Assembly: GCA_008704415.1 (NCBI GenBank)
Contig: VXIS01000041.1
Coordinates: 161,922 to 225,921, forward strand
Source: Sphaerosporella brunnea
Taxonomy: Eukaryota > Ascomycota > Pezizomycetes > Pezizales > Pyronemataceae
Length of the DNA stretch: 64,000 nucleotides
Reading direction: 5' to 3'
Numbering within the stretch: position 1 is the first letter of the stretch; each line of letters opens with the position of its first letter. Shown piece by piece: positions 26,531-64,000 of the stretch. Below the pieces are notes generated by a model. That model was not told the DNA's origin and made no database searches. It saw only the letters and a list, made by a program, of their open reading frames with translations. The translations under genes and the position numbers were made by a program.

Positions 26531-28032
26531 ATGTCTGAACAGCCGATCAAGAACAAGAAGGTCGATCACCTTGCTGGAGCGCCGTGAGTAACCCCCTCTG
26601 CAGCCTGGTGTTGCAACTCGACAGCAATCAAACGCCAGTCGCGAAAACCAACATCGGGCTGATTTTCAACTGTCCAGTACCCCGCAAAACACTCCTTCGT
26701 CGGCCGCGCCTATTTCCTCTCACGCTCAGCAACCTAATGTTTCCACCATCGAAGAAGGTTTGTTGAGCCCAAAATCCCAGGTTTCTACATATAAAGTTCC
26801 CCTCGACTGACCCTTCGCCACCCATACACAGAGAAGCTTGACCGCGCCGTCGCTGCTTCTATCTTCGCCTCAAATCCCGCGCTTGTCTCCATGATCGAGG
26901 GTAAGCTCGGAAAACTTGTCGGCCGCTCGTCCGGATACATCGAGTCGCTGCCCGCCCCCGTGCGTCGCCGCATCGATGGTCTGCGAGGTGTGCAGAAGGA
27001 GCACTCCAAGCTCGAGGCGCAGTTCCAGGAGGAGGTCCTTCAGCTCGAGAAGAAGTACTTCGCCAAGTTCACTCCTCTCTACGAGAAGCGTGCCAAGATT
27101 GTGAACGGTCTTGAGGAGCCCACCGAGGAGGAAGTTGCCGCTGGTAAGGAAGACGAAGAGGAAGACGAGGAGGAGAAGGCCGAGAAGAAGGAGGAGTCGA
27201 CCGAGGTTATGAATGGTGTGCCTGAGTTCTGGCTCTCTGCGATGAAAAATAATGTCCTTCTCGCCGAGACGATCACCGAGAGGGATGAGGCTGCTCTTAA
27301 GCACCTCACCGACATTCGGTTGAGCTACCTCGACACTCCTGGCTTCAGACTGCACTTCGTGTTCGCCGACAACGAGTTCTTCACCAACAAGGAGATTACC
27401 AAGACGTATTACTACCAGGATGAGAACGGCTATGGTGGTGACTTCATCTACGACCACGCCGAGGGTGACAAGATCAACTGGAAGGAGGGCAAGGACATGA
27501 CTGTCCGAATTGAGAGCAAGAAGCAGCGCAACAAGAGTATGTTTCTATTTCATTTATGTGTCTTGTCCGCAGCAAAGCTAATGCCGTGGATCATGAGCAG
27601 ACACCAAGCAGACCCGTGTCGTCAAGCGGACTGTTCCCACAGAGAGCTTCTTCAACTTCTTCACTCCTCCTAAGCCCCCGACCGACTTCGATGAGGATGA
27701 CGAAGACCAGGAGGACATCGAGGACCGCCTGGAGCTCGACTACCAGCTCGGTGAGGACATCAAGGAAAAGCTCATTCCCCGTGCCATCGACTGGTTCACC
27801 GGCGAGGCCCGCCAGTTTGAGGGTATGGGCGGTGATATGGAGGGCGAGTTCGAGGATGACGATGATGAGGACGAGGATCTGAGTGACGACGACCGGGACG
27901 AGGATGACGATGAGTCCGATGACGAGGTAAGTTGCTTTAATGCCCTTGCCATGGTATAGTATCCAGCTGACTCGCGCTTAGAACGACGGCACGAAACCCA
28001 AGCAGGAGGCTGCTGAGTGCAAGCAGAGCTAA
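26531..28032 (+). CDS. NAP1: NAP1, nucleosome assembly protein 1 (left-arm copy, intact)
   Basis: A histone H2A-H2B chaperone that also shuttles between nucleus and cytoplasm. Five exons join in frame: 26531-26583, 26678-26757, 26832-27536, 27601-27926 and 27982-28032, giving 404 residues. The NAP domain is complete: a long helix (about residues 60-110) with '[20 protein letters not shown]', then '[13 protein letters not shown]', '[18 protein letters not shown]' and '[10 protein letters not shown]'. The C-terminal tail is highly acidic (Asp/Glu runs near 27850-27926), as in yeast Nap1. The part from 27391 onward recurs in reverse complement at 63,363-64,000, where it is heavily damaged. The 5' half has no partner inside the window because the right arm is cut at 64,000. 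Confidence 0.95.
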
Positions 28033-28296
28033 ATTAGTCGTTCTTGATCATTCAACTGGTGTCAGTCCGGCCTTTTTCGTGGCATCTGAATAAAATGGTT
28101 CTGGTTCGGGGTATTTGGCTGGTTTTTTACGCTAGGGGGATGATTTGACCTGAGACGCAAAAATGGGTATAAATGGCCGCAATGCTCTGTTAATGAACGC
28201 AATCGTGAATTCCTTTTTTCTTTTCTCTTTCCTCTCTGACATGACATGTAATAAAGCTCATCTTACAAGTCTGTTAGTGCTTTGAAGGGGTTTCTT

Positions 28297-28328
<32 letters not shown>

Positions 28329-31300
28329 CACTCCCCTTTTGCAGACGGAGTAGGTGGTCAACTTTCCCTGTTATGCGTTATTCCTTTCAGTTTCTACAAG
28401 TCTGTTTTTGCATCCTTTCCATCTGTATCTATCCTTTCTGTTCCTCGAGAGGTTGCTATTCCTCATTTTTCCCCTCCCCTTCCCCCTCCCCCGCCAGGGT
28501 ATCTATGATATAGTGACGTGTCGTGTTGTGCGCGTTGAAGGACTGATTGGTTGATTGTCCTCCTACATAAGGAATTCTACAAGTTTGCAGTGTGACATTC
28601 ATCTTTTGAGGATGGCAACGGTTTGGTTTGATGGTCGGCTGAAACACTCGACTCCCACAGCTACGGCTTTTGTAGTATCTACTGCGTTATACTTTCGATC
28701 ACCTGGATTATTTACTAGCGAGCCATGGCGAGTAAGACATTTACTCGATGGTACTCGGAGGTCGAAGCAGTCTGAATGAATATCTTAGGGTGAGATCTTG
28801 CATCCGCAGTTGACCACGTCGAGGTTTTTGTTTGGCATATTGTTTCATATACTTTGTGTACTTGTCGTTGTGGATGAACACCAACTTCAACTCGGTGTTT
28901 CCGGAGTTCCGGAAGCAGTGATGCGTCATGAATGAAGGGAAGGAGGTGTTCCGAGCCGGCGCAGTGACTTAGCCACAATTTTTGGTCGTCGGGGCAGGCT
29001 AACAGCTGCAGATCGCATCGTGTGCTTTGACCATCTTGCGCACACTTATGCAGAGCCTCCACATGGCAACATGCATTCGTTCGAGTCACGATTCTGGGCT
29101 GCAAAGGGCAAGTTTATCCGGCATCTTCTTTGTATTGAGGAACCATTAAATGGGAAGAAACGAAGGTTTGAATTGTGAAGAGAGAAAGATGGATGTCGAA
29201 TTGACGATCTCTACTATTTACTGTATTTTTAATTGGCGAGAAAGAGACTGCCCTTTTTTTCCAAGTGTTTTCCGTCCGAGTGATTTCAGCGTTATTCGTC
29301 CAAGAAGTGTCCCGGCATACTTGAATATTATGGCAAGCGTTTCGTAGCTGTTCCGCACTGGATCCATCTTGTGATAAAACCCGAGTATCTTCTAATCCTT
29401 CCAGAAGCTCATCGACATGGACCTCAGCGTCGTTTCAGGTTCCACCTTCCAGTGCACTGATGATGAGTTACGGACGAAGGCCTGCGGTGACACTTTTGGT
29501 CAACAGACGAGGTGGCTGGCGATAGTGGCTGCTGTTTTTCGTGATCCAGATGGGTTTGATCACCTTCACGATGGTGTTTCGCATGCGGCATAATATTACT
29601 CCCCAATACTGCGCGGGCAGGCTAGTTGCTCCATATAGTTTCTGTATTGCCAACGGGAAACATAGGCGTGTTGATAGGTACTGCTCTCCCTTTCCCTAGA
29701 GGTATGCATTAGTTTCCGGCAGTTACCTAACACTGGCAGCAGCAGCTCCTAAAGAAACAAAATCTAAAACCTGTCCGAATCGGTATGGTTGAATGGCCGC
29801 AATGCAGTGATAGTAGCGGCAGTTCCTCCCAGTCAATCGGTTGAGTATTGATAGAAAACTCAAAGCTATCGCGCATCTTTTTCTCAACTGCAACAAAATA
29901 TTAGCGGTTTATTTTTAAAATATCCTGCTAGGTAATTTGAAGATGAATTACCGTGGGAGCCAGTTGTCCTGGCGTTGGGGTTGCAATTGCCGGGAGCACG
30001 TGAACTTCACCAGGTATCATCACTCGATGCCAAGCCCTGTGATAGTACTGGCACTCAGGCGACAGGCGGTCCGTATCTACCTGGAATTTGATGGCATCTA
30101 TGAAAGGACATTTTGATGAAGTCTTGCAATGAGCAGTCATGTAGCTACAGATTAACCTCCGGAGGTCTTAAGTTTGCAACTCATTTTTCTGTACTATCTA
30201 TCCCAGAAGGCATACATAACGTGTTGCCGTCAACGTTGTTGTCCCTCCCCTCGGGGAACTTGTCCACTCCATGGGAGCGCACCTTTGTCTTTTGCACTCA
30301 CTCACGTACGTTGGATCCGGATTGACGGCAAGTATTTTGGATGCGTGGGCCTGGGGTTATCGAGTAGCATTGGCTGGGCTTTTCGAGCGGGAGGAAACCC
30401 GAAAAAAAGGTTTTTTAATTTGTGGGCGACACCGTGAACCAAAGCGAAAGGATGTAACGTCAACGTTAACTTTAAATTTGGAGAGGGTCCAGTGTCCCTG
30501 AACACAGCTCCCCTTTTTTTTCCTGCTCAGCCGCGCCTGACAATGCGGTTTCTGTTCGAAAGCTGAATAGTGCTCGAGCCTCGTGGAAAAGATCGGTACC
30601 TGCCCGTCGCTCCCATCCTGGCAGCTGTTCGCTGAGGGAAACGGGGAAACGCCACTTCTTGTCCACGAGCAGTTGGTCCCTGACAACTCGCTCCCTGCAC
30701 TAACCCAGAAAACTCCCCAAGCTACTCCTCCAGCCTCCTTTCGTCTTTGCTGCTACCGCTACCAACTGCTGGCTTCTGCTGGCTTCATCCCACAGCCCGC
30801 CCCCCCCCCCCCCCCTCCTCCACCGCCCATCACCGCAACCACCGCGACGAACCCGTCAACTGCTAATCAACTGCTGCCACCTGACTTGAACCTCCTTCCC
30901 CCCCTCCGAAAGAACTTCCTCCTGCTCCTCCTTCTCCTCCTCCTCCTTTCCCTCCTCCCTCCCAAAGCCGGTCAGCACGCGATTCCTCTCAGACCCTTCT
31001 TCGACAACGTTTAATATTCCATACCCGGACCCTCCTTTTAACTCTTAGTTACACCGCTTCTCACTCCTCAAGAATCCACATTTACATTCCAATTGCGTTA
31101 CCTTCATTTGTTGTACCATACCCGCTCCGTTAGTTCGACAACGACCCCCCTCCGGAAACCACCAAATCCGGGGAAAGGAGATACCTGGTACCCCAAATCA
31201 TCGAGAGGCTTCCAGTAAACTCTGGCTGCCTCATACTGCTTCGCGAAATCAATAGAGTACCGACACACCACACAACTAACCACAGCGACTTGCTCGGGAA

Positions 31301-31333
31301 TCCCTCCTGAGCGCTTTCTACAACTGAGCGGCG
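28033..31333. other. 3.3 kb spacer between NAP1 and the class V myosin gene
   Basis: Mostly unassigned. It has a T run of about 30 nt near 28300-28329, one minus-strand candidate ORF (28715-29104, listed separately), and a C/T-rich stretch (30680-31010) that is probably the myosin promoter and leader. The right-arm counterpart lacks the long T run. Confidence 0.5.
28715..29104 (-). CDS. Unassigned ORF (possible exon of an unknown gene)
   Basis: About 129 codons open on the minus strand, Cys/His-containing, beginning just after a CTTTGCAG that could be a splice acceptor; no in-frame ATG lies at its 5' end. I recognise no domain. The mirrored copy in the right arm (about 62336-62719, plus strand) is interrupted by indels. 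It could be a real small gene, a gene relic or chance. Confidence 0.25.
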   Translation of the reverse strand: MQPRIVTRTNACCHVEALHKCAQDGQSTRCDLQLLACPDDQKLWLSHCAGSEHLLPFIHDASLLPELRKHRVEVGVHPQRQVHKVYETICQTKTSTWSTADARSHPKIFIQTASTSEYHRVNVLLAMAR

Positions 31334-34300
31334 ATGGCACACACTTATAATGTTGACACCGGGGCGTGGATTCAGGATCCAACGGATGGGTGGGTTTCAT
31401 CGAAGGTCATCTCAAAAAATATCGACGGAGATAAGGCCACGTTAGTTTTCGAGATTACCTCTGGTTCCAGAGAAGGCGAGGTGCGTTGTGTTGCTACTTC
31501 CCCTGGGTTGCAGGATTGTGGGGAAACAGGGGAAACAACCTATACCTCTGGAACCCAGCGCTGACTCGGCCTCCGTATGTAGAAAGTGGAGAAGACAACG
31601 AAACTCGCGGTGCTAGAAGGCAATGCGGAGGATAAAAACCTGCCGCCATTGATGAACCCGCCAGTGCTTGAAGCTTCGGATGATTTGACAAGTTTATCCC
31701 ATCTGAACGAGCCTGCTGGTACGGTGTCCTGGCCCCTTTGAGCACCTCCGCTCCCTCTCCCTGTAGCATATCGAGAGCATCAACGTCTAATGCTTTGTAT
31801 TCCCGAACAACAGTGCTTCAAGCCATTAAGCTTCGATATGCAAAGCGCGAGATTTACACATACTCCGGTATCGTCCTCATTGCGACGAATCCGTTCGATC
31901 GGATGGACTTTCTTTACGATCCAGGACTTGTTCAGGCCTACGCTGGCAAACGAAGGGAGGATCAAGATCCCCATCTGTTCGCTATTGCCGATACCGCCTA
32001 CCAGGCCATGGTGCGTGACCAGAAGAACCAGACAATCGTCGTGTCCGGAGAATCCGGAGCCGGAAAGACGGTTAGTGCTAAGTACATCATGCGATACTTC
32101 GCTACGGTGGAGGACCCAACCCGGCCAGGCAAGCGGCGGAAAGGCGGTCAGGGTACGGCCATGAAGATGAGCAAGACCGAAGAACAAATTTTGGCTACCA
32201 ACCCTATCATGGAAGCCTTCGGTAACGCAAAGACCACCCGTAATGACAATTCCTCGCGTTTTGGAAAGTACATTGAGATCATGTTCGACAAGGACGTTGA
32301 CATCGTTGGCGCCAAAATCCGTACCTACCTCCTGGAACGCGCCAGATTGGTGTTCCAGCCGGCCACTGAGCGTAACTACCACATCTTCTACCAGCTGATC
32401 GCCGGTGCCACGGATGAGGAGAAGCAAGCGCTGGGACTGAAGTCTGTGGAAGAGTTCAACTTTACCAACCAGGGCGGCGATCCAACGGTTCCCAACATGG
32501 ATGACGCGGCGGAGTTCAAGCTCACCAGAGATTCGCTAACAACCATTGGTGTGCCTGAGGAGACACAATCGCACATCTGGAAAGTCCTGGCGGCGCTTCT
32601 TCATCTCGGTAACACTGAGATTGGTGCTGTACGCAATGGCTCCGTACTCAACTCAGACGAGCCCAACTTGGTCCGCGCTGCCGAACTTCTCGGAGTCAAG
32701 GCTGACGAGTTCGCCAAGTGGACGACTAAGAAGCAACTTGTCATGCGGAATGAGAAGACCGTTACCCCACTTAGTCAAAAGCAAGCCATCGTTGTGCGAG
32801 ATTCGATTGCCAAGTTCATTTACTCATCGCTGTTTGACTGGCTCGTGGAGATCATCAATGAAAGTTTGGCCACGGAGGAGGTTCGCAGCAGAGTTACCTC
32901 ATTCATTGGTGTTTTGGATATCTATGGTTTTGAGCATTTCAAGCGCAATTCGTTCGAACAGTTTTGCATCAACTATGCCAACGAGAAGCTGCAGCAGGAG
33001 TTCAACCAGCACGTGTTCAAGTTGGAACAGGAAGAGTACGCGCGCGAGCAAATTAACTGGCAATACATCGAGTTCTCTGATAACAGACCTTGTATCGACT
33101 TGATCGAGGGTAAATTGGGTATTTTGAGTCTGTTGGACGAAGAATCGCGTCTTCCAGCCGGATCTGATGACTCCCTCATCACCAAGCTGCACCAGAACTT
33201 CAGCAACAAGGGCAAGGACTTCCCCTACCAGCAGCCGCGTTTCGGAAAATCGTCTTTCACCGTCTGCCATTATGCGGTAGATGTCACCTACGACTCGGAA
33301 GGTTTCGTGGAGAAGAACAGGGATACCGTGCCGGATGAGCATCTCGAGCTCCTGAGGGCCGCGACTAACCCCTTCTTGACCACTGTTCTCCAGGCATCTG
33401 CTTCTCTTCGAGACAAGGTGAGATATTGAGGCCCAGAGAGACCGTCATTCCCCATCTAACATAGCGCAGGAAACCGGTGGTGCTCCATCGAAGACTGCCA
33501 TTCCTCCTCCAGGCCGTAAGTTGGCTCTGCAGTCCACGCGCAAACCGACTCTTGGAGGTATCTTCAAGCACTCTTTGATCGAGTTGATGAACACCATTGG
33601 CTCGACTAATGTCCACTACATTCGTTGCATCAAGCCGAACGAGGCTAAGGTTGCTTGGAAGTTTGAGGGCCCTATGGTTCTCTCTCAGCTGCAGGCCTGT
33701 GGTGTTTTGGAAACCGTCAAGATCAGTTGCGCTGGGTACCCTACTCGATGGACTTATGAGGAATTTGCGAGCCGCTACTACATGTTGATTCACTCCGACG
33801 AGCTGAGAACCGGGAACATCCGGGAGGTTGGCTTGAAGATCCTGAAGAAGACCGTGCCTGCGGACGGTCATCCCCATGAGGGACAGAAGGACGGCAAGGA
33901 TAAGTACCAATTGGGAATGTCAAAGATCTTCTTCCGTGCGGGAATGGTAAGTATCTTGTTTCACTGATCACAGTTGATTTGCTGATGACGCTTTGTAGTT
34001 GGCGTTCTTGGAAAATCTGCGCACACGCCGCCTGAATGAATGTGCGGTTCTGATTCAGAAGAATCTCAAGGCGAAGTTCTACAGACGCAAGTACCTGGAG
34101 GCTCGTGAGGCCATCCTCAAATCGCAGGCATATGCCCGTGGTTACCTTGCTCGCAAGACTGCCCAGGAACTGCGAATCGTCAAGGCTGCTACTACTATCC
34201 AAAGGGTGTGGCGCGGTTCCAAGCAGCGCGAATGCTACCACGCTATCCGCAACAGCGTCATCAAGGTACAGGCGGCGGCGAAGGGTTATCTGTGCAGGAA

Positions 34301-36464
34301 AAGTATTACCGACCGCATGCTGGGCAACGCTGCTCGGTACATCCAGACTGCGTGGAGATCCAGACGATTCCTTCGGGCTTGGAGTTTGTACCGCAAGCGC
34401 GTCGTATATCTCCAGAGTATCTGGCGTGGTAAGGTTGCTCGCCGAGAGTACAAGAAGATTCGTGAAGAAGCCCGAGACCTCAAGCAGATTTCGTACAAGC
34501 TTGAAAACAAGGTCGTCGAACTTACTCAGAATATCGGAATGCTCAAGAAGGAAAACAAACTTCTTCTAGAGAAAGTCGAGAGTTTCGACAACCAGGTGAA
34601 GACCTGGAGGCAGAAGCACGCAAACCTTGAGAACCGGAACAAGGAGCTTCAGATTGAGGCGAATCAGGCTGGTATCGCGGCCGCAAGGCTACAGCAGATG
34701 GACGAAGAGATGAAGAACCTTCAGAAGCAGTTCGAGGAGTCGACTGCCAACATGAAGAGGTTACAAGAGGAGGGCAAGTCTCTGCGGGAGTCCCTTACGC
34801 AGCGTACCACGGAGCTTGACAACTACAAGCTTCGGGACAAGGCGCACGAGGAAGAAAAGCTTTCGCTCAGGCAGCAGATCCAGGCACTGGAGGATCAGTT
34901 GCAGAATGCTGGCCCGCCATTGGAAGACCCAAGCATGGCGGAGAAGTCATCTGGCGGCCTCACAAATGGTCTCATCCACTTTGTTACCAACAAGAAGCCG
35001 AAGCGACGAAGTGCGGAAATTGTGGGGATGGGACGATTGGAGCAGGATGGTATGTACCGGTCGTCTTACCAGACTCGACCTGTGTCCATGATGCCCACCA
35101 GCCAGCCTATGCGTCCTCGGGAGTTCGAGCATTTTGCCCCAACAGCCGAGAACAGCGAGGAAGAGATGTTGCGCATACTAGAGGAAGAGGACTCGCTGAG
35201 CGACGAGGTTTCGATCGGCCTGATCAAGAACCTCAAGGTGCCGCCTCTCAACTCGCAGACTCCGCCCCAATACAAGGAAGTTATGTTCCCCGCCTACCTC
35301 ATCAACTTGGTTACGTCCGAGATGTGGAACAATGGATTCGTCAAGGAGTCGGAACGATTCCTAGCCAACGTCATGCAAAGTATTCAGCACGAGGTCATGA
35401 TGAACCACGACGAGGACGCTATTACGCATGGCGCCTTCTGGCTTTCTAACGTGCACGAGATGCTGTCCTTTGTGTTCCTTGCCGAGGACTGGTATGAGCT
35501 TCAGAAGAAGGATGATTACGAGTACGATCGGCTGCTCGAGATTGTCAAGCACGACTTGGAATCTCTAGAGTTCAACATTTACCACACCTGGATGAAGGTT
35601 CTTAAGAAGAAGCTGCAGAAGATGATCATTCCCGCAATCATCGAATCGCAGTCTCTGCCCGGTTTCGTCACCAACGACGGAAACCGGTTCCTCAACAAGC
35701 TGCTGCAGACAAACAGCCAGCCGCAGTTCAGCATGGACGACCTGTTGAGCTTGCTCAACAAGGTCTACAAGGCCATGAAGACTTACTATGTCGAGGAATC
35801 GATCATCCTCCAGACGGTAACCGAGCTTCTCAAGCTTGTTGGTGTCACGGCGTTCAACGACCTCCTGTTGCGACGAAACTTCCTGTCTTGGAAGCGTGGT
35901 CTGCAGATCAACTACAACATCACCCGTATTGAGGAATGGTGCAAGAGCAATGACATGCCCGAGGGTATCTTGCAGCTCGAGCACCTCATGCAGGCAACGA
36001 AGCTGCTACAGCTCAAGAAGGCCACGCTCAGCGATATCGAGATCATTCAGGACATCTGCTGGATGCTCTCGCCCAACCAGATCCAGAAGCTGCTGAATCA
36101 GTACCTGGTCGCCGACTACGAGCAGCCCATCAACGGCGAAATAATGAAGGCGGTGGCAAGTCGGGTTACCGAGAAGAGCAACGACGTGCTGCTGCTGCAA
36201 GCTATCGACATGGAGGACAGCGGCCCGTACGAGATCCCAGAGCCCCGTAACATTGGCGCTCTGGAGACGTACTGCCCGTCGTACCTGCAGACGCCGAAGC
36301 TGCGGCGGTTGGCGGATGTGGTGGCGGCCCAGGCGCAGCAGAGGGCGGAGGAGGCGGCGGCGGCCGAGGCTGCCGAGGAGGAGGAAGTGGATGGAGAGGG
36401 AGAGGGTGACGCCAATGGTACTCCTGACGACAACACGCTCGTGGAGGAGACCGCAGAGGCTTAA
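31334..36464 (+). CDS. MYO2: Class V myosin heavy chain (left-arm copy, intact)
   Basis: An actin-based motor that carries secretory vesicles and organelles to growing tips (MyoE in Aspergillus, Myo2 in yeast). Five exons join in frame: 31334-31480, 31583-31718, 31814-33417, 33470-33946 and 33999-36464, giving 1609 residues. An SH3-like N-terminus precedes the motor head. The P-loop GESGAGKT is at about residue 173, with switch motifs 'NDNSSRFGKY' and 'DIYGFEHF'. 'RCIKPNE' lies near the end of the head. Six IQ motifs follow (from 'AVLIQKNLKAKFYRRKYL' to 'VVYLQSIWRGKVARREYK'), then a coiled coil, then the C-terminal DIL/globular cargo domain ('MLSFVFLAEDW', 'LLLRRNFLSWKRGLQINYNI'). The length fits the family. 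The first three exons read cleanly here, unlike in the right arm. Confidence 0.95.
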
Positions 36465-38733
36465 CGATTTTGGTATACTTCCATATCTTACCCTTCCCGA
36501 ATATAGCAAGCTAACTACGCATGCAGCTTTGTATTACGAGTTCATGAAACGCTGAATGACTGGAGTCACAGCAAACCCGGGCCATGGGAGTAGAGAAAAA
36601 TACAGGATGGAAGGAATGAAGGAAGGAGTCTCAGTTTGATGCGTCTCGGTCTTACTGCCGCGGGTTTTTGATACGAGTATACTATATAGTTCTCTTCGAT
36701 GGTTGTTCTTTCTAGGGGTGGTAGCCGTCTCATTTCTTTTTTTTATTTTATTTTTTCTCTACGGAGCATCTTCCCATGTCGTTTGGTTTTCTTTGGATAT
36801 GCAGCTGTTGTCTACTAGCGATTGTTTGATACTCATTGCGAGAAAGAACATTCATTCATTTCTTGGTTGAGTGTGCGTGGCATGTATAGGGTGCGGGTGA
36901 CATCTTTTGGTTCCATTTTGTTGGGTTTTAGCATCTAGAGTTTCATATGGATCAACCGTAAAGTTTCACATCATGAGCAGGTGGCTTGAACAGGCATATG
37001 GTAATAGGGTCCGGAGCTCGAGGCGATAACTTCTACTATGCCACCGCTAGGAACACTGACCACAAGAAGTATGTACAAGTATTTACATACAAGTTGGAAG
37101 TGATGGTCAATGAAGCTTCGAAGCAGCCTTGAAGTCGTCTAGCGCTCACAACACGCACCTTGTTCATAACTGATGCTTGATACTTGATCGAAACAGACCA
37201 GGCCAAAACAAAAAGAGCGGTTCGAACTGGAATATCTCAATGAGCAGCTCGGGTCTTGGATAAGTGATGCGTGCGAATGGGAAACTTGCTAGGAGGTACC
37301 AGACGCCGATATATCGAGCGGTTAACTCTGGATGATGATTTTTCTTTGCGGTTTTCAGTTCACGGATCGGGTTTGGGAAAGCTCTCCAGGAGATATCAGA
37401 CATGTTTCCGTAAAACAAAGGTTACCGACTGCAAAAAAAAGCTATTGAGCTGCTGAGGACGATGGGTTTGGTATTCCGGTGCTGGTTTGTGTAGGTTTGA
37501 TGAGTGGAACGCCATGGGAGAGACGGTACTTGGGTCTCGGACGAAATGTAAAAGTAACTTGATGTTAAAGTTGACGGCGAGCAAAGGGAGTGATTGCTAG
37601 TGAAGCATTGAATATTTATATAAATCTACTCTACACGGCGGGGGGTGTATGTTGCCAACTGGGGCACAAACCCGGGAATTCAAAATGCTTTTTTTACCTG
37701 TAACCAACTCTTCATCAAAGGGTGTAGGGGTAATATCTGTTCTTACCACTTTGACCCCATCAAACGCAGCTTAAAAACAAAAACAACCTGAGGGGTTTTA
37801 AAATGCGGGTTTCTTTGAGTAATAAAGGGAACTTTTGATGATGATAACGGAACATCTACTGGAACCCGCCAGCACTGACAAGCGAGTGAAAGGGACACAT
37901 GAGCTGTGTAGCAACACGGTTGATGTTGATTGCTAACGGCCCACATGTTTTGCCTCCCCAACAGAATGCCGAGATCCTCCAGGAGATCGGCAGGTGCGTG
38001 TAGCGGCCAACGGGCTTTCCGAGGGAAGGGTTTCGAGGGTCGGAGGGTTAACGGGGCGGAACGGAGTTGTTTTGTTTCCTCCGTCTCCTTGCTTTGTTTG
38101 GGAGGACCGCTGGTCTTTATTCTTTATTCGTGGGGGTGGGAATGAAGCATTGTATCGTGGTCTGACAACAGTGGTGGCGGCTGCTCTGTCATGCGAACCC
38201 CACGAGTAACGATCACTGGCTGGACGAGCTGCTGGGGGGGCGTCTTTTTTCTTCCACCGAGACGATTGCTTGGATTCCTCGCAATGCGCAGTTCCATTCT
38301 TTTATGTAATAGCACGTCTAGCAGCTCTTATTGCACCCGTTTGTATTCCATGTATCTATTTTGCTCCACACGAGCTGAAGTGCTTCTTCTTTGAGCCCCG
38401 CCATCCGCCGTCCAATCCAAGTCCAGACCCACGCTTGTGCTAGGTACCACTTCCAACACACGACACACTCAACCCCAGCAAGCACTCCTCTGGACCCGGA
38501 CTCCCAACTCCCACAACCAACTACCACCACCACCACCACCACCACCACCACCACCACCCTGCCGCTTCTCTCTTGACTTTGACCTCTACCAGCGCACCCA
38601 TCAAGTCGAACCCTCTCTCGCCAAGCTCGCTCTATATCAGGCCAACAACCCTCCTGAACCTGCAGCCTTCCCCCCCCTCTTCGACACTTTCGAACAACCG
38701 CCACAACCGCAGGACATAGCACGCCAAACGATC
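36465..38733. other. 2.3 kb spacer between myosin and CDC34 (left arm)
   Basis: No gene supported. T/A-rich 3' sequence follows the myosin stop. The CDC34 leader carries a CCA/ACC microsatellite at about 38523-38559. The mirrored sequence is at about 52689-54989. Confidence 0.55.
38523..38559. repeat. ACC-type microsatellite in the CDC34 leader (left arm)
   Basis: About twelve consecutive ACC units. The right-arm counterpart near 52866-52900 is the complementary GGT run of similar length. Confidence 0.85.
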
Positions 38734-51733: not shown

Positions 51734-52688
51734 CTATTTCTCCTGGTTGCCCTCCTCGTCGGGATCACTCTCATCGTCATCTTCCTCTGCAAGCCCTTAG
51801 TCAGCCGCCTGCCATCTGCTTCCACATGCCGAGAAAACCCTACCAAAGATCATGTCCTCGTCACTATCAGCGCCAAAGTCCGAATCTCCGGAATCGCACC
51901 AAAAATCGTCGTCCTCCTCTTCCTTCGGAGGCGGCTTGTTATCCATGGAAGTTGGCATCTGAAAGCCGGCGGGGATGTCGCGCTTGCTGGTCTCGACGTT
52001 TTCCTTCACGATGCGCTTGTAGCCTTCCGGATCCTTGCGCAGCATGACCGAAGCGTCAACGTTCGCCGCGGAGGAAACTTCCGCGTCGTCCAGTAAGGAT
52101 AGAATGGAAATCAACACCGTGAAGATACGTTGAGCGGCACTCCAACGTTCCTGCCCATATGTCGTCAGCTCTGCACAGCTTCGGAGAAGGGGCGGAGGGA
52201 GAGGGGAAACGAACCGAAGCAAGCTCGCCCGACATTTCGTCCTCGCCGGGCTGGTGCAGGATAGAGATACATAGCTTTCCGTCTTTGTAGATGTTTGGAT
52301 GGAACAGGGGTCGCAGGAAACGGAATTCGGGGGGGCTCATGGGGTAGTCTTTGGGGATTTTGAGCTCGGCCTGGACAACCACACAATCGTAAGGTTCAGC
52401 ATGCTTGAAGGTATCGCGAAGAAGCAAAAAGGGAGAATACGAACCTTGAGGTAGGCTCCATGGTACAAGCTGGTAGGATTCAACACTACCAGTGCCACAT
52501 CCCACAGGAAGAGATTACCGTTTTGAGCCTGTCCAATAGAAGCAACATGTCAGCCACCCTGCTTGAACTCCAGCCGCGCCGAGGGGGCTGGCGAGACTCA
52601 CCTCGGCGTTCACCCAGTTCTCCTTCTGAATCTCCTTGAGCTCAAGCATGAGCATCCGTTCTGCGATCTTACGCTCGTCGACAGACAT
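51734..52688 (-). CDS. CDC34: CDC34/UBE2R-type E2 ubiquitin-conjugating enzyme (right-arm copy, intact)
   Basis: The E2 that works with SCF ubiquitin ligases, for example in cell-cycle protein turnover. Five exons join in frame: 52602-52688, 52445-52528, 52215-52370, 51844-52150 and 51734-51786, giving 228 residues. The UBC fold is complete. It has the HPN motif at about residues 81-83 and the catalytic cysteine at about 91 in 'DGKLCISILHQ'. The insert after it (PGEDEMSGE) is the acidic loop that marks Cdc34/Ube2R enzymes. 'AANVDASVMLRKD' and a long acidic C-terminal tail also fit. It converges with VPS41. The left-arm copy has at least seven frameshifting deletions. Confidence 0.9.
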
Positions 52689-54989
52689 GATCGTTTGGCG
52701 TGCTATGTCCTGCGGTTGTGGCGGTTGTTCGAAAGTGTCGAAGAGGGGGGGGAAGGCTGCAGGTTCAGGAGGGTTGTTGGCCTGATATAGAGCGAGCTTG
52801 GCGAGAGAGGGTTCGACTTGATGGGTGCGCTGGTAGAGGTCAAAGTCAAGAGAAGAAGCGGCAGGGTGGTGGTGGTGGTGGTGGTGGTGGTGGTGGTGGT
52901 AGTTGGTTGTGGGAGTTGGGAGTCCGGGTCCAGAGGAGTTGCTTGCTGGGTTGAGTGTGTCGTGTGTTGGAAGTGGTACCTAGCACAAGCGTGGGTCTGG
53001 ACTTGGATTGGACGGCGGATGGCGGGGCTCAAAGAAGAAGCACTTCAGCTCGTGTGGAGCAAAATAGATACATGGAATACAACGGGTGCAATAAGAGCTG
53101 CTAGACGTGCTATTACATAAAAGAATGGAACTGCGCATTTGCGAGGAATCCAAGCAATCGTCTCGGTGGAAGAAAAAAAGACGCCCCCCCAGCAGCTCGT
53201 CCAGCCAGTGATCGTTACTCGTGGGTTCGCATGAACAGAGCAGCCGCCACCACTGTTGTCAGACCACGATACAATGCTTCATTCCACCCCCACGAATAAA
53301 GAATAAAGACCAGCGGTCCTCCCCAAACAAAGCAAGGAGACGGAGGAAAAAAAAAAAAAAAAAAAAAAAAAAAACAACTCCGTTCCGCCCCGTTAACCCT
53401 CCGACCCTCCGAAACCCTTCCCTCGGAAAGCCCGTTGGCCGCTACACGCACCTGCCGATCTCCTGGAGGATCTCGGCATTTCTGTTGGGGGAGGCAAAAC
53501 ATGTGGGCCGTTAGCAATCAACATCAACCGTGTTTGCTACACAGCTCATGTGTCCCTTTTCACTCGCTTGTCCGTGCTGGCGGGTTCCAGTAGATGTTCC
53601 GTTATCATCATCAAAAGTTCCCTTTATTACTCAAAGAAACCCGCATTTTAAAACCCCTCAGGTTGTTTTTGTTTTTAAGCTGCGTTTGATGGGGTCAAAG
53701 TGGTAAGAACAGATATTACCCCTACACCCTTTGATGAAGAGTTGGTTACAGGTAAAAAAAGCATTTTTGAATTCCCGGGTTTGTGCCCCAGTTGGCAACA
53801 TACACCCCCCGCCGTGTAGAGTAGATTTATATAAATATTCAATGCTTCACTAGCAATCACTCCCTTTGCTCGCCGTCAACTTTAACATCAAGTTACTTTT
53901 ACATTTCGTCCGAGACCCAAGTACCGTCTCTCCCATGGCGTTCCACTCATCAAACCTACACAAACCAGCACCGGAATACCAAACCCATCGTCCTCAGCAG
54001 CTCAATAGCTTTTTTTTTGCAGTCGGTAACCTTTGTTTTACGGAAACATGTCTGATATCTCCTGGAGAGCTTTCCCAAACCCGATCCGTGAACTGAAAAC
54101 CGCAAAGAAAAATCATCATCCAGAGTTAACCGCTCGATATATCGGCGTCTGGTACCTCCTAGCAAGTTTCCCATTCGCACGCATCACTTATCCCAAGACC
54201 CGAGCTGCTCATTGAGATATTCCAGTTCGAACCGCTCTTTTTGTTTTGGCCTGGTCTGTTTTCGATCAAGTATCAAGCATCAGTTATGAACAAGGTGCGT
54301 GTTGTGAGCGCTAGACGACTTCAAGGCTGCTTCGAAGCTTCATTGACCATCACTTCCAACTTGTATGTAAATACTTGTACATACTTCTTGTGGTCAGTGT
54401 TCCTAGCGGTGGCATAGTAGAAGTTATCGCCTCGAGCTCCGGACCCTATTACCATATGCCTGTTCAAGCCACCTGCTCATGATGTGAAACTTTTACGGTT
54501 GATCCATATGAAACTCTAGATGCTAAAACCCAACAAAATGGAACCAAAAGATGTCACCCGCACCCTATACATGCCACGCACACTCAACCAAGAAATGAAT
54601 GAATGTTCTTTCTCGCAATGAGTATCAAACAATCGCTAGTAGACAACAGCTGCATATCCAAAGAAAACCAAACGACATGGGAAGATGCTCCGTAGAGAAA
54701 AAATAAAATAAAAAAAAGAAATGAGACGGCTACCACCCCTAGAAAGAACAACCATCGAAGAGAACTATATAGTATACTCGTATCAAAAACCCGCGGCAGT
54801 AAGACCGAGACGCATCAAACTGAGACTCCTTCCTTCATTCCTTCCATCCTGTATTTTTCTCTACTCCCATGGCCCGGGTTTGCTGTGACTCCAGTCATTC
54901 AGCGTTTCATGAACTCGTAATACAAAGCTGCATGCGTAGTTAGCTTGCTATATTCGGGAAGGGTAAGATATGGAAGTATACCAAAATCG
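52689..54989. other. Spacer between CDC34 and myosin (right arm)
   Basis: Mirror of 36465-38733. It carries the GGT microsatellite near 52866-52900 and an A run of about 28 nt at about 53347-53374. The left arm has only a short AAACAAAA-like sequence at the place of that run. No gene supported. Confidence 0.6.
53347..53374. repeat. A28-type homopolymer present only in the right arm
   Basis: An uninterrupted run of about 28 A between GGAGG and CAACTCCG. At the mirrored position (about 38071-38080) the left arm has only a few A residues around a C. Such an expansion between otherwise near-identical arms suggests consensus error. Confidence 0.8.
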
Positions 54990-57900
54990 TTAAGCCTCTG
55001 CGGTCTCCTCCACGAGCGTGTTGTCGTCAGGAGTACCATTGGCGTCACCCTCTCCCTCTCCATCCACTTCCTCCTCCTCGGCAGCCTCGGCCGCCGCCGC
55101 CTCCTCCGCCCTCTGCTGCGCCTGGGCCGCCACCACATCCGCCAACCGCCGCAGCTTCGGCGTCTGCAGGTACGACGGGCAGTACGTCTCCAGAGCGCCA
55201 ATGTTACGGGGCTCTGGGATCTCGTACGGGCCGCTGTCCTCCATGTCGATAGCTTGCAGCAGCAGCACGTCGTTGCTCTTCTCGGTAACCCGACTTGCCA
55301 CCGCCTTCATTATTTCGCCGTTGATGGGCTGCTCGTAGTCGGCGACCAGGTACTGATTCAGCAGCTTCTGGATCTGGTTGGGCGAGAGCATCCAGCAGAT
55401 GTCCTGAATGATCTCGATATCGCTGAGCGTGGCCTTCTTGAGCTGTAGCAGCTTCGTTGCCTGCATGAGGTGCTCGAGCTGCAAGATACCCTCGGGCATG
55501 TCATTGCTCTTGCACCATTCCTCAATACGGGTGATGTTGTAGTTGATCTGCAGACCACGCTTCCAAGACAGGAAGTTTCGTCGCAACAGGAGGTCGTTGA
55601 ACGCCGTGACACCAACAAGCTTGAGAAGCTCGGTTACCGTCTGGAGGATGATCGATTCCTCGACATAGTAAGTCTTCATGGCCTTGTAGACCTTGTTGAG
55701 CAAGCTCAACAGGTCGTCCATGCTGAACTGCGGCTGGCTGTTTGTCTGCAGCAGCTTGTTGAGGAACCGGTTTCCGTCGTTGGTGACGAAACCGGGCAGA
55801 GACTGCGATTCGATGATTGCGGGAATGATCATCTTCTGCAGCTTCTTCTTAAGAACCTTCATCCAGGTGTGGTAAATGTTGAACTCTAGAGATTCCAAGT
55901 CGTGCTTGACAATCTCGAGCAGCCGATCGTACTCGTAATCATCCTTCTTCTGAAGCTCATACCAGTCCTCGGCAAGGAACACAAAGGACAGCATCTCGTG
56001 CACGTTAGAAAGCCAGAAGGCGCCATGCGTAATAGCGTCCTCGTCGTGGTTCATCATGACCTCGTGCTGAATACTTTGCATGACGTTGGCTAGGAATCGT
56101 TCCGACTCCTTGACGAATCCATTGTTCCACATCTCGGACGTAACCAAGTTGATGAGGTAGGCGGGGAACATAACTTCCTTGTATTGGGGCGGAGTCTGCG
56201 AGTTGAGAGGCGGCACCTTGAGGTTCTTGATCAGGCCGATCGAAACCTCGTCGCTCAGCGAGTCCTCTTCCTCTAGTATGCGCAACATCTCTTCCTCGCT
56301 GTTCTCGGCTGTTGGGGCAAAATGCTCGAACTCCCGAGGACGCATAGGCTGGCTGGTGGGCATCATGGACACAGGTCGAGTCTGGTAAGACGACCGGTAC
56401 ATACCATCCTGCTCCAATCGTCCCATCCCCACAATTTCCGCACTTCGTCGCTTCGGCTTCTTGTTGGTAACAAAGTGGATGAGACCATTTGTGAGGCCGC
56501 CAGATGACTTCTCCGCCATGCTTGGGTCTTCCAATGGCGGGCCAGCATTCTGCAACTGATCCTCCAGTGCCTGGATCTGCTGCCTGAGCGAAAGCTTTTC
56601 TTCCTCGTGCGCCTTGTCCCGAAGCTTGTAGTTGTCAAGCTCCGTGGTACGCTGCGTAAGGGACTCCCGCAGAGACTTGCCCTCCTCTTGTAACCTCTTC
56701 ATGTTGGCAGTCGACTCCTCGAACTGCTTCTGAAGGTTCTTCATCTCTTCGTCCATCTGCTGTAGCCTTGCGGCCGCGATACCAGCCTGATTCGCCTCAA
56801 TCTGAAGCTCCTTGTTCCGGTTCTCAAGGTTTGCGTGCTTCTGCCTCCAGGTCTTCACCTGGTTGTCGAAACTCTCGACTTTCTCTAGAAGAAGTTTGTT
56901 TTCCTTCTTGAGCATTCCGATATTCTGAGTAAGTTCGACGACCTTGTTTTCAAGCTTGTACGAAATCTGCTTGAGGTCTCGGGCTTCTTCACGAATCTTC
57001 TTGTACTCTCGGCGAGCAACCTTACCACGCCAGATACTCTGGAGATATACGACGCGCTTGCGGTACAAACTCCAAGCCCGAAGGAATCGTCTGGATCTCC
57101 ACGCAGTCTGGATGTACCGAGCAGCGTTGCCCAGCATGCGGTCGGTAATACTTTTCCTGCACAGATAACCCTTCGCCGCCGCCTGTACCTTGATGACGCT
57201 GTTGCGGATAGCGTGGTAGCATTCGCGCTGCTTGGAACCGCGCCACACCCTTTGGATAGTAGTAGCAGCCTTGACGATTCGCAGTTCCTGGGCAGTCTTG
57301 CGAGCAAGGTAACCACGGGCATATGCCTGCGATTTGAGGATGGCCTCACGAGCCTCCAGGTACTTGCGTCTGTAGAACTTCGCCTTGAGATTCTTCTGAA
57401 TCAGAACCGCACATTCATTCAGGCGGCGTGTGCGCAGATTTTCCAAGAACGCCAACTACAAAGCGTCATCAGCAAATCAACTGTGATCAGTGAAACAAGA
57501 TACTTACCATTCCCGCACGGAAGAAGATCTTTGACATTCCCAATTGGTACTTATCCTTGCCGTCCTTCTGTCCCTCATGGGGATGACCGTCCGCAGGCAC
57601 GGTCTTCTTCAGGATCTTCAAGCCAACCTCCCGGATGTTCCCGGTTCTCAGCTCGTCGGAGTGAATCAACATGTAGTAGCGGCTCGCAAATTCCTCATAA
57701 GTCCATCGAGTAGGGTACCCAGCGCAACTGATCTTGACGGTTTCCAAAACACCACAGGCCTGCAGCTGAGAGAGAACCATAGGGCCCTCAAACTTCCAAG
57801 CAACCTTAGCCTCGTTCGGCTTGATGCAACGAATGTAGTGGACATTAGTCGAGCCAATGGTGTTCATCAACTCGATCAAAGAGTGCTTGAAGATACCTCC

Positions 57901-60123
57901 AAGAGTCGGTTTGCGCGTGGACTGCAGAGCCAACTTACGGCCTGGAGGAGGAATGGCAGTCTTCGATGGAGCACCACCGGTTTCCTGCGCTATGTTAGAT
58001 GGGGAATGACGGTCTCTCTGGGCCTCAATATCTCACCTTGTCTCGAAGAGAAGCAGATGCCTGGAGAACAGTGGTCAAGAAGGGGTTAGTCGCGGCCCTC
58101 AGGAGCTCGAGATGCTCATCCGGCACGGTATCCCTGTTCTTCTCCACGAAACCTTCCGAGTCGTAGGTGACATCTACCGCATAATGGCAGACGGTGAAAG
58201 ACGATTTTCCGAAACGCGGCTGCTGGTAGGGGAAGTCCTTGCCCTTGTTGCTGAAGTTCTGGTGCAGCTTGGTGATGAGGGAGTCATCAGATCCGGCTGG
58301 AAGACGCGATTCTTCGTCCAACAGACTCAAAATACCCAATTTACCCTCGATCAAGTCGATACAAGGTCTGTTATCAGAGAACTCGATGTATTGCCAGTTA
58401 ATTTGCTCGCGCGCGTACTCTTCCTGTTCCAACTTGAACACGTGCTGGTTGAACTCCTGCTGCAGCTTCTCGTTGGCATAGTTGATGCAAAACTGTTCGA
58501 ACGAATTGCGCTTGAAATGCTCAAAACCATAGATATCCAAAACACCAATGAATGAGGTAACTCTGCTGCGAACCTCCTCCGTGGCCAAACTTTCATTGAT
58601 GATCTCCACGAGCCAGTCAAACAGCGATGAGTAAATGAACTTGGCAATCGAATCTCGCACAACGATGGCTTGCTTTTGACTAAGTGGGGTAACGGTCTTC
58701 TCATTCCGCATGACAAGTTGCTTCTTAGTCGTCCACTTGGCGAACTCGTCAGCCTTGACTCCGAGAAGTTCGGCAGCGCGGACCAAGTTGGGCTCGTCTG
58801 AGTTGAGTACGGAGCCATTGCGTACAGCACCAATCTCAGTGTTACCGAGATGAAGAAGCGCCGCCAGGACTTTCCAGATGTGCGATTGTGTCTCCTCAGG
58901 CACACCAATGGTTGTTAGCGAATCTCTGGTGAGCTTGAACTCCGCCGCGTCATCCATGTTGGGAACCGTTGGATCGCCGCCCTGGTTGGTAAAGTTGAAC
59001 TCTTCCACAGACTTCAGTCCCAGCGCTTGCTTCTCCTCATCCGTGGCACCGGCGATCAGCTGGTAGAAGATGTGGTAGTTACGCTCAGTGGCCGGCTGGA
59101 ACACCAATCTGGCGCGTTCCAGGAGGTAGGTACGGATTTTGGCGCCAACGATGTCAACGTCCTTGTCGAACATGATCTCAATGTACTTTCCAAAACGCGA
59201 GGAATTGTCATTACGGGTGGTCTTTGCGTTACCGAAGGCTTCCATGATAGGGTTGGTAGCCAAAATTTGTTCTTCGGTCTTGCTCATCTTCATGGCCGTA
59301 CCCTGACCGCCTTTCCGCCGCTTGCCTGGCCGGGTTGGGTCCTCCACCGTAGCGAAGTATCGCATGATGTACTTAGCACTAACCGTCTTTCCGGCTCCGG
59401 ATTCTCCGGACACGACGATTGTCTGGTTCTTCTGGTCACGCACCATGGCCTGGTAGGCGGTATCGGCAATAGCGAACAGATGGGGATCTTGATCCTCCCT
59501 TCGTTTGCCAGCGTAGGCCTGAACAAGTCCTGGATCGTAAAGAAAGTCCATCCGATCGAACGGATTCGTCGCAATGAGGACGATACCGGAGTATGTGTAA
59601 ATCTCGCGCTTTGCATATCGAAGCTTAATGGCTTGAAGCACTGTTGTTCGGGAATACAAAGCATTAGACGTTGATGCTCTCGATATGCTACAGGGAGAGG
59701 GAGCGGAGGTGCTCAAAGGGGCCAGGACACCGTACCAGCAGGCTCGTTCAGATGGGATAAACTTGTCAAATCATCCGAAGCTTCAAGCACTGGCGGGTTC
59801 ATCAATGGCGGCAGGTTTTTTATCCTCCGCATTGCCTTCTAGCACCGCGAGTTTCGTTGTCCTTCTCCACTTTCTACATACGGAGGCCGAGTCAGCGCTG
59901 GGTTCCAGAGGTATAGGTTGTTTCCCCTGTTTCCCCACAATCCTGCAACCCAGGGGAAGTAGCAACACAACGCACCTCGCCTTCTCTGTGAACCAGAGGT
60001 AATCTCGAAAACTAACGTGGCCTTATCTCCGTCGATATTTTTTGAGATGACCTTCGATGAAACCCACCCATCCGTTGGATCCTGAATCCACGCCCCGGTG
60101 TCAACATTATAAGTGTGTGCCAT
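54990..60123 (-). pseudogene. MYO2: Class V myosin, right-arm copy with frameshifts in exons 1-2
   Basis: Mirror of 31334-36464. Exons 3-5 (58037-59640, 57508-57984 and 54990-57455) are identical to the left arm and encode the intact head, IQ motifs, coiled coil and DIL domain. The first two exons carry three single-base insertions: near 59990 (TTCACAG for TTCCAG), near 59868 (GAAGGACAAC for GAAGACAAC) and near 59819 (an A run lengthened by one). Each shifts the frame, so the gene cannot be read from its start as written. The clustering at the distal side of the gene marks where this arm's sequence quality begins to fall. Confidence 0.88.
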
Positions 60124-63100
60124 CGCCGCTCAGTTGTAGAAAGCGCTCAGGAGGGATTCCCGAGCAAGTCGCTGTGGTTAGTTGTGTGGTGTGTCGGTAC
60201 TCTATTGATTTCGCGAAGCAGTATGAGGCAGCCAGAGTTTACTGAAGCCTCTCGATGATTTGGGGTACCAGGTATCTCCTTTCCCCGGATTTGGTGGTTT
60301 CCGGAGGGGGGTCGTTGTCGAACTAACGGAGCGGGTATGGTACAACAAATGAAGGTAACGCAATTGGAATGTAAATGTGGATTCTTGAGGAGTGAGAAGC
60401 GGTGTAACTAAGAGTTAAAAGGAGGGTCCGGGTATGGAATATTAAACGTTGTCGAGAAGGGTCTGAGAGGAATCGCGTGCTGACCGGCTTTGGGAGGGAG
60501 GAGGGAAAGGAGGAGGAGGAGAAGGAGGAGCAGGAGGAAGTTCTTTCGGAGGGGGGGAAGGAGGTTCAAGTCAGGTGGCAGCAGTTGATTAGCAGTTGAC
60601 GGTTCGTCGCGGTGGTTGCGGTGATGGGCGGTGGAGGAGCGGGCTGTGGGATGAAGCCAGCAGAAGCCAGCAGTTGGTAGCGGTAGCAGCAAAGACGAAA
60701 GGAGGCTGGAGGAGTAGCTTGGGGAGTTTTCTGGGTTAGTGCAGGGAGCGAGTTGTCAGGGACCAACTGCTCGTGGACAAGAAGTGGCGTTTCCCCGTTT
60801 CCCTCAGCGAACAGCTGCCAGGATGGGAGCGACGGGCAGGTACCGATCTTTTCCACGAGGCTCGAGCACTATTCAGCTTTCGAACAGAAACCGCATTGTC
60901 AGGCGCGGCTGAGCAGGAAAAAAAAAGGGGAGCTGTGTTCAGGGACACTGGACCCTCTCCAAATTTAAAGTTAACGTTGACGTTACATCCTTTCGCTTTG
61001 GTTCACGGTGTCGCCCACAAATTAAAAAACCTTTTTTTCGGGTTTCCTCCCGCTCGAAAAGCCCAGCCAATGCTACTCGATAACCCCAGGCCCACGCATC
61101 CAAAATACTTGCCGTCAATCCGGATCCAACGTACGTGAGTGAGTGCAAAAGACAAAGGTGCGCTCCCATGGAGTGGACAAGTTCCCCGAGGGGAGGGACA
61201 ACAACGTTGACGGCAACACGTTATGTATGCCTTCTGGGATAGATAGTACAGAAAAATGAGTTGCAAACTTAAGACCTCCGGAGGTTAATCTGTAGCTACA
61301 TGACTGCTCATTGCAAGACTTCATCAAAATGTCCTTTCATAGATGCCATCAAATTCCAGGTAGATACGGACCGCCTGTCGCCTGAGTGCCAGTACTATCA
61401 CAGGGCTTGGCATCGAGTGATGATACCTGGTGAAGTTCACGTGCTCCCGGCAATTGCAACCCCAACGCCAGGACAACTGGCTCCCACGGTAATTCATCTT
61501 CAAATTACCTAGCAGGATATTTTAAAAATAAACCGCTAATATTTTGTTGCAGTTGAGAAAAAGATGCGCGATAGCTTTGAGTTTTCTATCAATACTCAAC
61601 CGATTGACTGGGAGGAACTGCCGCTACTATCACTGCATTGCGGCCATTCAACCATACCGATTCGGACAGGTTTTAGATTTTGTTTCTTTAGGAGCTGCTG
61701 CTGCCAGTGTTAGGTAACTGCCGGAAACTAATGCATACCTCTAGGGAAAGGGAGAGCAGTACCTATCAACACGCCTATGTTTCCCGTTGGCAATACAGAA
61801 ACTATATGGAGCAACTAGCCTGCCCGCGCAGTATTGGGGAGTAATATTATGCCGCATGCGAAACACCATCGTGAAGGTGATCAAACCCATCTGGATCACG
61901 AAAAACAGCAGCCACTATCGCCAGCCACCTCGTCTGTTGACCAAAAGTGTCACCGCAGGCCTTCGTCCGTAACTCATCATCAGTGCACTGGAAGGTGGAA
62001 CCTGAAACGACGCTGAGGTCCATGTCGATGAGCTTCTGGAAGGATTAGAAGATACTCGGGTTTTATCACAAGATGGATCCAGTGCGGAACAGCTACGAAA
62101 CGCTTGCCATAATATTCAAGTATGCCGGGACACTTCTTGGACGAATAACGCTGAAATCACTCGGACGGAAAACACTTGGAAAAAAAGGGCAGTCTCTTTC
62201 TCGCCAATTAAAAATACAGTAAATAGTAGAGATCGTCAATTCGACATCCATCTTTCTCTCTTCACAATTCAAACCTTCGTTTCTTCCCATTTAATGGTTC
62301 CTCAATACAAAGAAGATGCCGGATAAACTTGCCCTTTGCAGCCCAGAATCGTGACTCGAACGAATGCATGTTGCCATGTGGAGGCTCTGCATAAGTGTGC
62401 GCAAGATGGTCAAAGCACACGATGCGATCTGCAGCTGTTAGCTGCCCCGACGACCAAAATTGTGGCTAAGTCACTGCGCCGGCTCGGAACACCTCCTTCC
62501 CTTCATTCATGACGCATCACTGCTTCCGAACTCCGGAAACACCGAGTTGAAGTTGGTGTTTCATCCACAACGACAAGTACACAAAGTATATGAACAATCT
62601 GCAAACAAAAACCTCGACGTGGTCAACTGCGGATGCAGATCTCAACCTAAGATATTCCTTCAGACTGCTTCGGACTCCGAGTACATCGAGTAAAATGTCT
62701 TACTCGCCATGCTCGCTAGTAATAATCCAGTGATCGAAAGTATAACGCAGTAGATCTCCAAAAGTCCGTAGCTGTGGGAGTCGAGTGTTTCAGCCGACCA
62801 TCAAACCAAACCGTTGCCATCCTCAAAAGATGAATGTCACACTGCAAACTTGTAGAATTCCTTATGTAGGAGGACAATCAACCAATCAGTCCTTCACGCG
62901 CACAACACGACACGTCACTATATCATAGATACCCTGGCGGGGGAGGGGGAAGGGGAGGGGAAAATGAGGAATAGCAACCTCTCGAGGAACAGAAAGGATA
63001 GATACAGATGGAAAGGATGCAAAACAGACTTGTAGAAACTGAAAGGAATGACGCATACCAGGAAAGGTGACCACCTACTCCGTCTGCACAAACGAGTGAA

Positions 63101-63362
63101 AATCAAGAACCCTTCAAGCACTAAGCAGATACTTGTAATGATGAGCTTTATACATGTCATGTCCGAGAGAATGAGAAGAAGAAAAAGGGAATTCACGATT
63201 GCGTTCATTAACAGTAGCATTGCGGGCTTTATACCTTTGTGCGTCTCCGATCAATCATCCCTAGCGTAAAAAACCCAGCCAATACCCCGAACCAGAACCA
63301 TTTTATTCAGATGCCACGAACAGGCCGGACTGACACCAGTTGAATGATCAAGAACGCCTAAT
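60124..63362. other. Spacer between myosin and NAP1 (right arm)
   Basis: Mirror of 28033-31333 with scattered differences that become frequent after about 62400. The unassigned ORF of the left arm (28715-29104) is here at about 62336-62719 on the plus strand and is interrupted. No gene supported. Confidence 0.55.
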
Positions 63363-64000
63363 TTAGCTCTGCTTGCACTCAGCAGCCTCCTGCTTGGTCG
63401 TGGCCGTCGTTCTAAGCGCGAGTCAGCTGGATACTATACCATGGCAAGGTGCATGTAAAGCACTTCCTCGTCATCGTACTCATCGTCATCCTCGTCCCGT
63501 CGTCGTCACTCAGAGCCCTCGTCTCATCCTCGTCATCCTCGAACTCGCCCTCCATATCAGCGCCATACCTCAAACGGGCGGGCACCTCGCGGTGAACCAG
63601 CGATGGCACGGGGAATGAGCTTTCCTGATGGCCTCACCGAGCTGGTAGTCGAGCTCCAGTGCGGTCCTCGATGTCCTCCTGCTCGTCGTCATCCTCAGCG
63701 AAGTCGTCGGGGGCTTGGAGGGTGCAGAAGTTGAAGAAGCTCTCGTGGGAACAGTCCGCTTGACGCCACGGTCTGCTTGGTGTCTGACTCATGGATCCAC
63801 GCATTAGCTTGGCTGCGGACAAGACACATAAATGAAATAGAAACATACTCATTGTTGCGCGGCTTCTTGCTCTCAATTCGGACAGTCATGGCCCTTGCCC
63901 TCCTTCCAGTTGCTCTTGTCACCCTCGGCGTGGTCGTAGATGAAGTCACACCATAGCCGTTAGTCTCATCCTGCGGTAGTAATACGTCTTGGTAATCTCC
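63363..64000 (-). pseudogene. NAP1: NAP1 3' half, right-arm copy, heavily disrupted and cut by window end
   Basis: Reverse complement of 27391-28032. Even the most conserved stretches are interrupted by substitutions and indels (for example around 63440-63480 and 63870-63990). The damage is much denser than anywhere else in the arms and affects intron and exon alike. A gene decaying under no selection would not leave the neighbouring arm sequence identical, so I read this as raw-read-level sequence near an assembly end. Confidence 0.88.

Follow-up and report, generated by a model that had tools for sequence, protein, structure and literature searches.

A contig-terminal palindrome in the Sphaerosporella brunnea assembly is very probably an artefact, with fold-back reads as its probable source

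A 64,000-nucleotide stretch of the S. brunnea genome assembly (contig VXIS01000041.1, here C346, positions 161,922 to 225,921; hereafter the window) ends in a giant palindrome in which about 18.3 kilobases (kb) of gene-bearing sequence are followed by their own reverse complement. The right arm of this palindrome is very probably an artefact that has no separate locus in the fungus, and it probably arose from fold-back molecules that formed during library preparation and were carried into the assembly. A first-pass annotation of the sequence had left the choice between an artefact and a very recent real duplication. The former is now well supported by the position of the palindrome at the contig terminus, similar structures at 5 of 20 contig starts, insertions and deletions (indels) that break reading frames, and the use of low-input PacBio sequencing; the real duplication found no support. 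The fold-back junctions are also unrelated to one another, and a unique outer flank was lacking in all six cases found; together these observations point to fold-back molecules.

Alignment of the two arms to each other with BLASTN paired positions 27391-45686 with 64000-45696 at 98.46% identity over 18,421 columns, with 43 mismatches and 157 indels. When the whole window was aligned to itself under default BLASTN scoring, the same inverted match was seen at 28325-63102 (98.96%; 46 mismatches versus 218 gaps, each difference being counted twice), and the outer stretch, 27391-28303 against 63099-64000, aligned separately at 91.3% (24 mismatches versus 50 gaps). The innermost exact stem, defined as at least 14 bases, stopped at 45686 and resumed at 45696. 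These alignments confirm that the inverted match is a real feature of the sequence, far beyond chance. The near-perfect palindrome with a 9-nucleotide spacer described in the first-pass annotation was thereby borne out, and its range for the sums of mirrored coordinates, 91380-91457, was nearly right (computed range, 91375-91457). Difference counts were taken from the BLASTN arm-to-arm alignment, whose scoring favours gaps; an initial MAFFT alignment of the arms, which split the differences into 300 events and showed stretches of consecutive substitutions over the outer 1-2 kb, was not used for counts. No open frame of at least 90 amino acids spans the centre of the window's palindrome, which is made up as follows.

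27391..45686, + strand: left arm, joined to the rest of the contig (arm-to-arm alignment and self-alignment)
45687..45695, no strand: 9-base spacer at the fold-back junction (innermost exact stem)
45696..64000, - strand: right arm, the reverse complement of the left arm, reaching the final base of the contig (alignments and contig end)
63099..64000, - strand: outermost 0.9 kb of the right arm, 91% identical to 27391-28303 (self-alignment)

The window and its contig, one of 640 in an assembly of 50,565,648 bases, end at the same base (225,921 in contig numbering). The right arm therefore has no outer flank, and, since the contig terminates there, 18.3 kb is the whole of the arm present in the assembly. 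The initial figure of at least 18.3 kb was thus correct in size, with nothing further to be found in this assembly.

The same structure was sought at other contigs by aligning the first 10 kb of each of 20 contigs to its own reverse complement; two of these stretches were later extended. Contigs were picked by number before inspection, mostly in steps of 32 through the list, with C17, C640 and the start of C346 added. Terminal palindromes were detected in this way at 5 of the 20 starts (5 of 19 non-focal contigs; 95% interval, 9-51%). All five start at base 1 of the contig concerned, with arms that range from 2.55 to 9.5 kb.

C1:1-19017, terminal palindrome (stretches L004 and L024)
C417:1-12765, terminal palindrome (stretches L018 and L025)
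C97:1-5103, terminal palindrome (stretch L008)
C449:1-6121, terminal palindrome (stretch L019)
C640:1-6681, terminal palindrome (stretch L023)

The remaining 15 starts, including that of C346, showed no terminal palindrome within 10 kb, although centres lying beyond the fetched stretch would escape this search. Short inverted repeats were present in two starts (L016 and L020). In all six cases, the five above and the window, the palindrome stops at the contig terminus with no unique outer flank. Thus, a second arm that is the reverse complement of its neighbour, with little spacer between them, recurs at many unrelated loci of one data set and ends each time with the contig.

Differences between arms were dominated by indels. 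Over the six palindromes together (43,014 aligned columns) there were 261 indels, of which 239 were of one base and 219 lay beside the same base, and 49 mismatches, of which 8 were transitions. By comparison, four control inverted repeats from the sequence fetched for this survey held 23 indels versus 48 mismatches (Fisher p 3e-17 against the palindromes). The controls were two overlapping repeats in L036, one in L019 and one in L016; L036:1610-3445, two smaller pairs in L036 and the repeat in L020 were not counted among them. Differences in the window were patchy, being absent from 31633-36959 (5.3 kb) and dense, as single-base indels, in other patches; of the 200 difference events, 80 fall in the contig's last kilobase. 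Of 45 indels in the four shorter palindromes, 38 reflect a base missing from the outer arm; in the two longest the sides were mixed (98 outer versus 118 inner).

Indels of this kind damage genes. Searched with tblastn, VPS41 of Trichophaea hybrida (P0123) matched the left arm in six pieces spread over three frames and the right arm in two. Likewise, the catalase frame on C417 matched its Pfam profile from 1 to 379 in the inner arm and from 120 to 379 in the outer arm.

A genuine and very recent inverted duplication in S. brunnea, its second arm truncated by the contig end, would account for long, nearly identical arms and for the 5.3 kb without any difference, and the assembly of a real palindrome could break off within its second arm. 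However, this explanation requires many independent palindromes, and the six seen all end exactly at a contig terminus, have unrelated centres and lack a unique outer flank; the window's centre matched no other contig. Nor do the differences look like the mutations expected of such a duplication: the window has 157 indels against 43 mismatches, of which only 6 are transitions. Duplicated DNA in ascomycetes decays by repeat-induced point mutation (RIP), which changes C to T. Decay of a genuine duplication, by RIP or by mutation in general, was rejected because both mismatches and transitions are few. Genuine large palindromes, such as those reportedly described in a paper on willow sex chromosomes, have long inverted gene-bearing arms. 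The structures found here share the long inverted arms and the doubled genes; unlike genuine palindromes, they have no outer flank, stop at contig termini in all six cases and differ mostly by one-base indels. We therefore regard a genuine duplication as very unlikely. A partly overlapping idea is that the living mycelium carried many broken or closed, hairpin-ended chromosome ends that were copied into palindromes, in which case the contig ends would mark real fold-back sites in the fungus; it is very improbable.

The centres of the six palindromes bear on how an artefact could have formed. By innermost exact stem the spacers measure 9 bases in C346, 69 in C1, 11 in C417, 17 in C97, 40 in C449 and 536 in C640; exact stems were used because the cut point limits the arm alignment near the centre in C97, C417 and C449. 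When 581 to 1301 bases around each centre were searched against the whole assembly, with only the best candidates scored, no third copy showing the continuation beyond a centre was found, and matches of at least 94% lay only in the centre's own contig in all six cases. Weaker matches elsewhere were obtained for the centres of C449 (67-84%) and C1 (70-83%).

One form that the artefact could take is a missed SMRTbell adapter, by which a single insert is read on both strands because the adapter between them goes unrecognised. Missed adapters have been named as a possible source of palindromic reads (PMC6218980), and reads of the resulting shape are known from PacBio data, the type of data used here. 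However, no clear adapter trace was detected at the six centres. Local alignment scores of the SMRTbell adapter sequence were 12, 15, 12, 15, 26 and 24 for C346, C1, C417, C97, C449 and C640, respectively, where a perfect match would score 90, and 154, 91, 153, 29, 1 and 7 of 200 shuffled sequences, in the same order, scored as high. The centres of C449 and C640 are GA-rich, and it is there that a missed adapter is least excluded. For want of a clear trace this form of artefact was rejected, and it is unlikely.

Another form is a pure error of assembly or finishing, in which finisherSC or Falcon joins the opposite strand at a short inverted repeat and no chimeric molecule exists. In the window, C417 and C449 the turn does coincide with short self-complementary sequence, and finisherSC was part of the pipeline. 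Against this, stems so short should not suffice for a long-read overlap, and three of the six centres turn within 9-17 bases, which suggests that the read itself turned there. An error of this kind is quite improbable.

The published methods are consistent with fold-back molecules as the source. The S. brunnea genome was sequenced from a 10-kb PacBio library prepared with a low-input protocol, and Falcon, finisherSC and Arrow were used for its assembly (PMC6908789); its reads are deposited under SRP214822 and SRP215074 (BioProject PRJNA554466), and the available text of that paper mentions neither palindromes nor fold-backs. In two amplified Arabidopsis PacBio data sets, palindromic reads made up 47.8% and 43.6% of all reads and harmed assembly (Pacasus, PMC6218980). 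In multiple displacement amplification (MDA), more than 85% of chimeric rearrangements were inverted sequences with intervening deletions, and priming occurred at 2-21 complementary bases in more than 70% of junctions (PMC1855051). The structures described here resemble these amplification palindromes in having an arm followed by its reverse complement, and, as in S. brunnea, PacBio palindromes of this type are abundant and impair assembly. They differ in being known here only from the finished assembly, and the genome paper, as far as its available text goes, says "low-input protocol" and leaves amplification unstated (PMC6908789). Fold-back reads, in which a second segment lies on the opposite strand at the same place, often with almost nothing between, share this shape; they are described mainly from Nanopore data, with a warning of tangles in assembly graphs (Breakinator, PMC12870357), and similar reads are reported from Nanopore ligation libraries and amplified DNA (PMC13141652, PMC13265396). 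The Breakinator fold-backs are scarce in PacBio HiFi data, a point of difference from the present PacBio assembly, and the palindrome of C640 has a spacer that exceeds the 200-base rule used there.

We propose that, during low-input library preparation, the end of a strand would be extended along its own complement or along a nearby opposite strand, yielding a product composed of an arm, a short spacer and the reverse complement of the arm. Such fold-back reads would enter Falcon and finisherSC, the contig path would in places double back over itself before stopping, and the contig would then finish in its own reverse complement. Genuine reads of the opposite strand could carry the path beyond the fold-back read, which would allow an 18.3-kb arm to form from a 10-kb library. 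Polishing, hindered by ambiguous mapping, would correct one arm in some patches and its partner in others, as the observed mosaic of differences suggests. Under this mechanism, the contig would lack the genuine continuation beyond about 45690.

Several observations weigh against this explanation. At 18.3 kb, the arms are longer than the stated 10-kb library. Hairpin self-priming was excluded as a major route in MDA (PMC1855051), and virtually no fold-backs were reported in PacBio HiFi and MAS-Seq data, with 0.03% in Iso-Seq (PMC12870357). No terminal fold-back was found at any of 11 contig ends, examined over 4 kb each and drawn from the 19 non-focal contigs; the difference from the starts was not significant (5/19 versus 0/11, p 0.13), and 4 kb would reveal only 3 of the 5 palindromes. 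The end of C640 (L036, 132563-136562) carries a palindrome of a different type (L036:1610-3445); most of its differences are mismatches, and about 100 bases separate it from the end of the contig. The control in L016 (84.5% identity) also had more indels (20) than mismatches (16); the controls without it held 3 indels and 32 mismatches. The pile-up of differences at the terminus was present in C346 only and absent from the other five, and in C1 the peak lay near the centre. Finally, a real palindrome would suffer the same ambiguous mapping and might also be badly polished in this pipeline, so indels alone do not decide the matter and support an artefact only jointly with the position and number of the cases.

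Pfam searches of open frames in the window identified myosin head, DIL, ubiquitin-conjugating enzyme, Vps41 and NAP domains, which belong to the following genes.

26795..27673, + strand: NAP1 open frame, inside the left arm from 27391 on; this portion alone has a mirror at the end of the contig (Pfam NAP, arm limits)
31684..36464, + strand: class V myosin, left-arm copy with head, IQ and DIL (open frames; domains scanned on the mirror copy)
54990..59770, - strand: class V myosin, right-arm copy, identical to the left copy across the stretch (Pfam, aligned differences)
52056..52514, - strand: ubiquitin-conjugating enzyme frame in the right arm (Pfam UQ_con), with its mirror at about 38905-39360 (aligned differences)
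40373..44219, - strand: VPS41, left-arm copy, split into several frames (tblastn with P0123), matched to the deposited 995-amino-acid protein
47161..51034, + strand: VPS41, right-arm copy, nearly continuous, with an open frame at 47529-50984 (1151 amino acids; Pfam, protein match), matched to the deposited 1220-amino-acid protein

Of the four genes first listed as carried twice, myosin, the ubiquitin-conjugating enzyme and VPS41 are indeed doubled, and NAP1 is doubled only in part, its frame starting outside the arm. The name CDC34 was the first-pass label for the frame in which Pfam finds the UQ_con domain, and it has that label as its only source. Two deposited S. brunnea proteins, FN846DRAFT_937589 (1220 amino acids, P0121) and FN846DRAFT_1027151 (995 amino acids, P0125), both recorded on a contig of 225,921 bases, were retrieved with the right-arm VPS41 frame as query. 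P0121 matched the right arm in three pieces at 100%, 98% and 100%. Residues 1-59 and 130-539 of P0125 matched the left arm at 100%; besides residues 130-539 there were five pieces at 74-100%, where the gene model and the frames diverge. By these matches, the 995-amino-acid protein corresponds to the damaged left-arm copy and the 1220-amino-acid protein to the right-arm copy.

In the window, the MAFFT alignment also placed homopolymer runs in one arm that are absent from the other: 15 C at about 30800-30814, 20 T at 38069 and 16 T at 39825. Pfam searches of the other arms identified a different gene in each case with a match, namely a catalase in C417, a reverse transcriptase in C449 and an aminotransferase in C640, and gave no match for the scanned frames of the C1 and C97 arms. 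In C449, an open frame with an RVT_2 domain (L019:4153-6237) spans the boundary between single-copy sequence and the palindrome arm. Parts of L019:2662-3461, at the centre of the same palindrome, match many sites in the assembly at 67-84% (at least 89 matches listed, its own two included), and a putative dispersed repeat thus adjoins this fold-back centre. A frame that enters the C1 centre reads as zinc-finger-like from its cysteine/histidine pattern; it had no Pfam match, partial relatives of it occur at other places in the assembly, and a nearby frame of 503 amino acids has one relative only. Searches with these two frames yielded no gene cut by the C1 fold-back with its other half on another contig. 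At the end of C640, L036:693-3899 is a cluster of inverted repeats, shorter pairs included, that are 95-98% alike and differ mostly by substitutions, unlike the fold-backs; it is possibly a genuine repeat array.

Biologically, the palindrome is ordinary, belonging to a known kind of sequencing artefact. Its value lies in a warning about data quality, namely that genes are doubled near contig ends of the S. brunnea assembly, and the damaged VPS41 duplicate now stands as a separate public protein record (P0125, beside P0121). Masking contig-terminal self-inverted stretches before studies of gene families or duplication would prevent such false duplicates.

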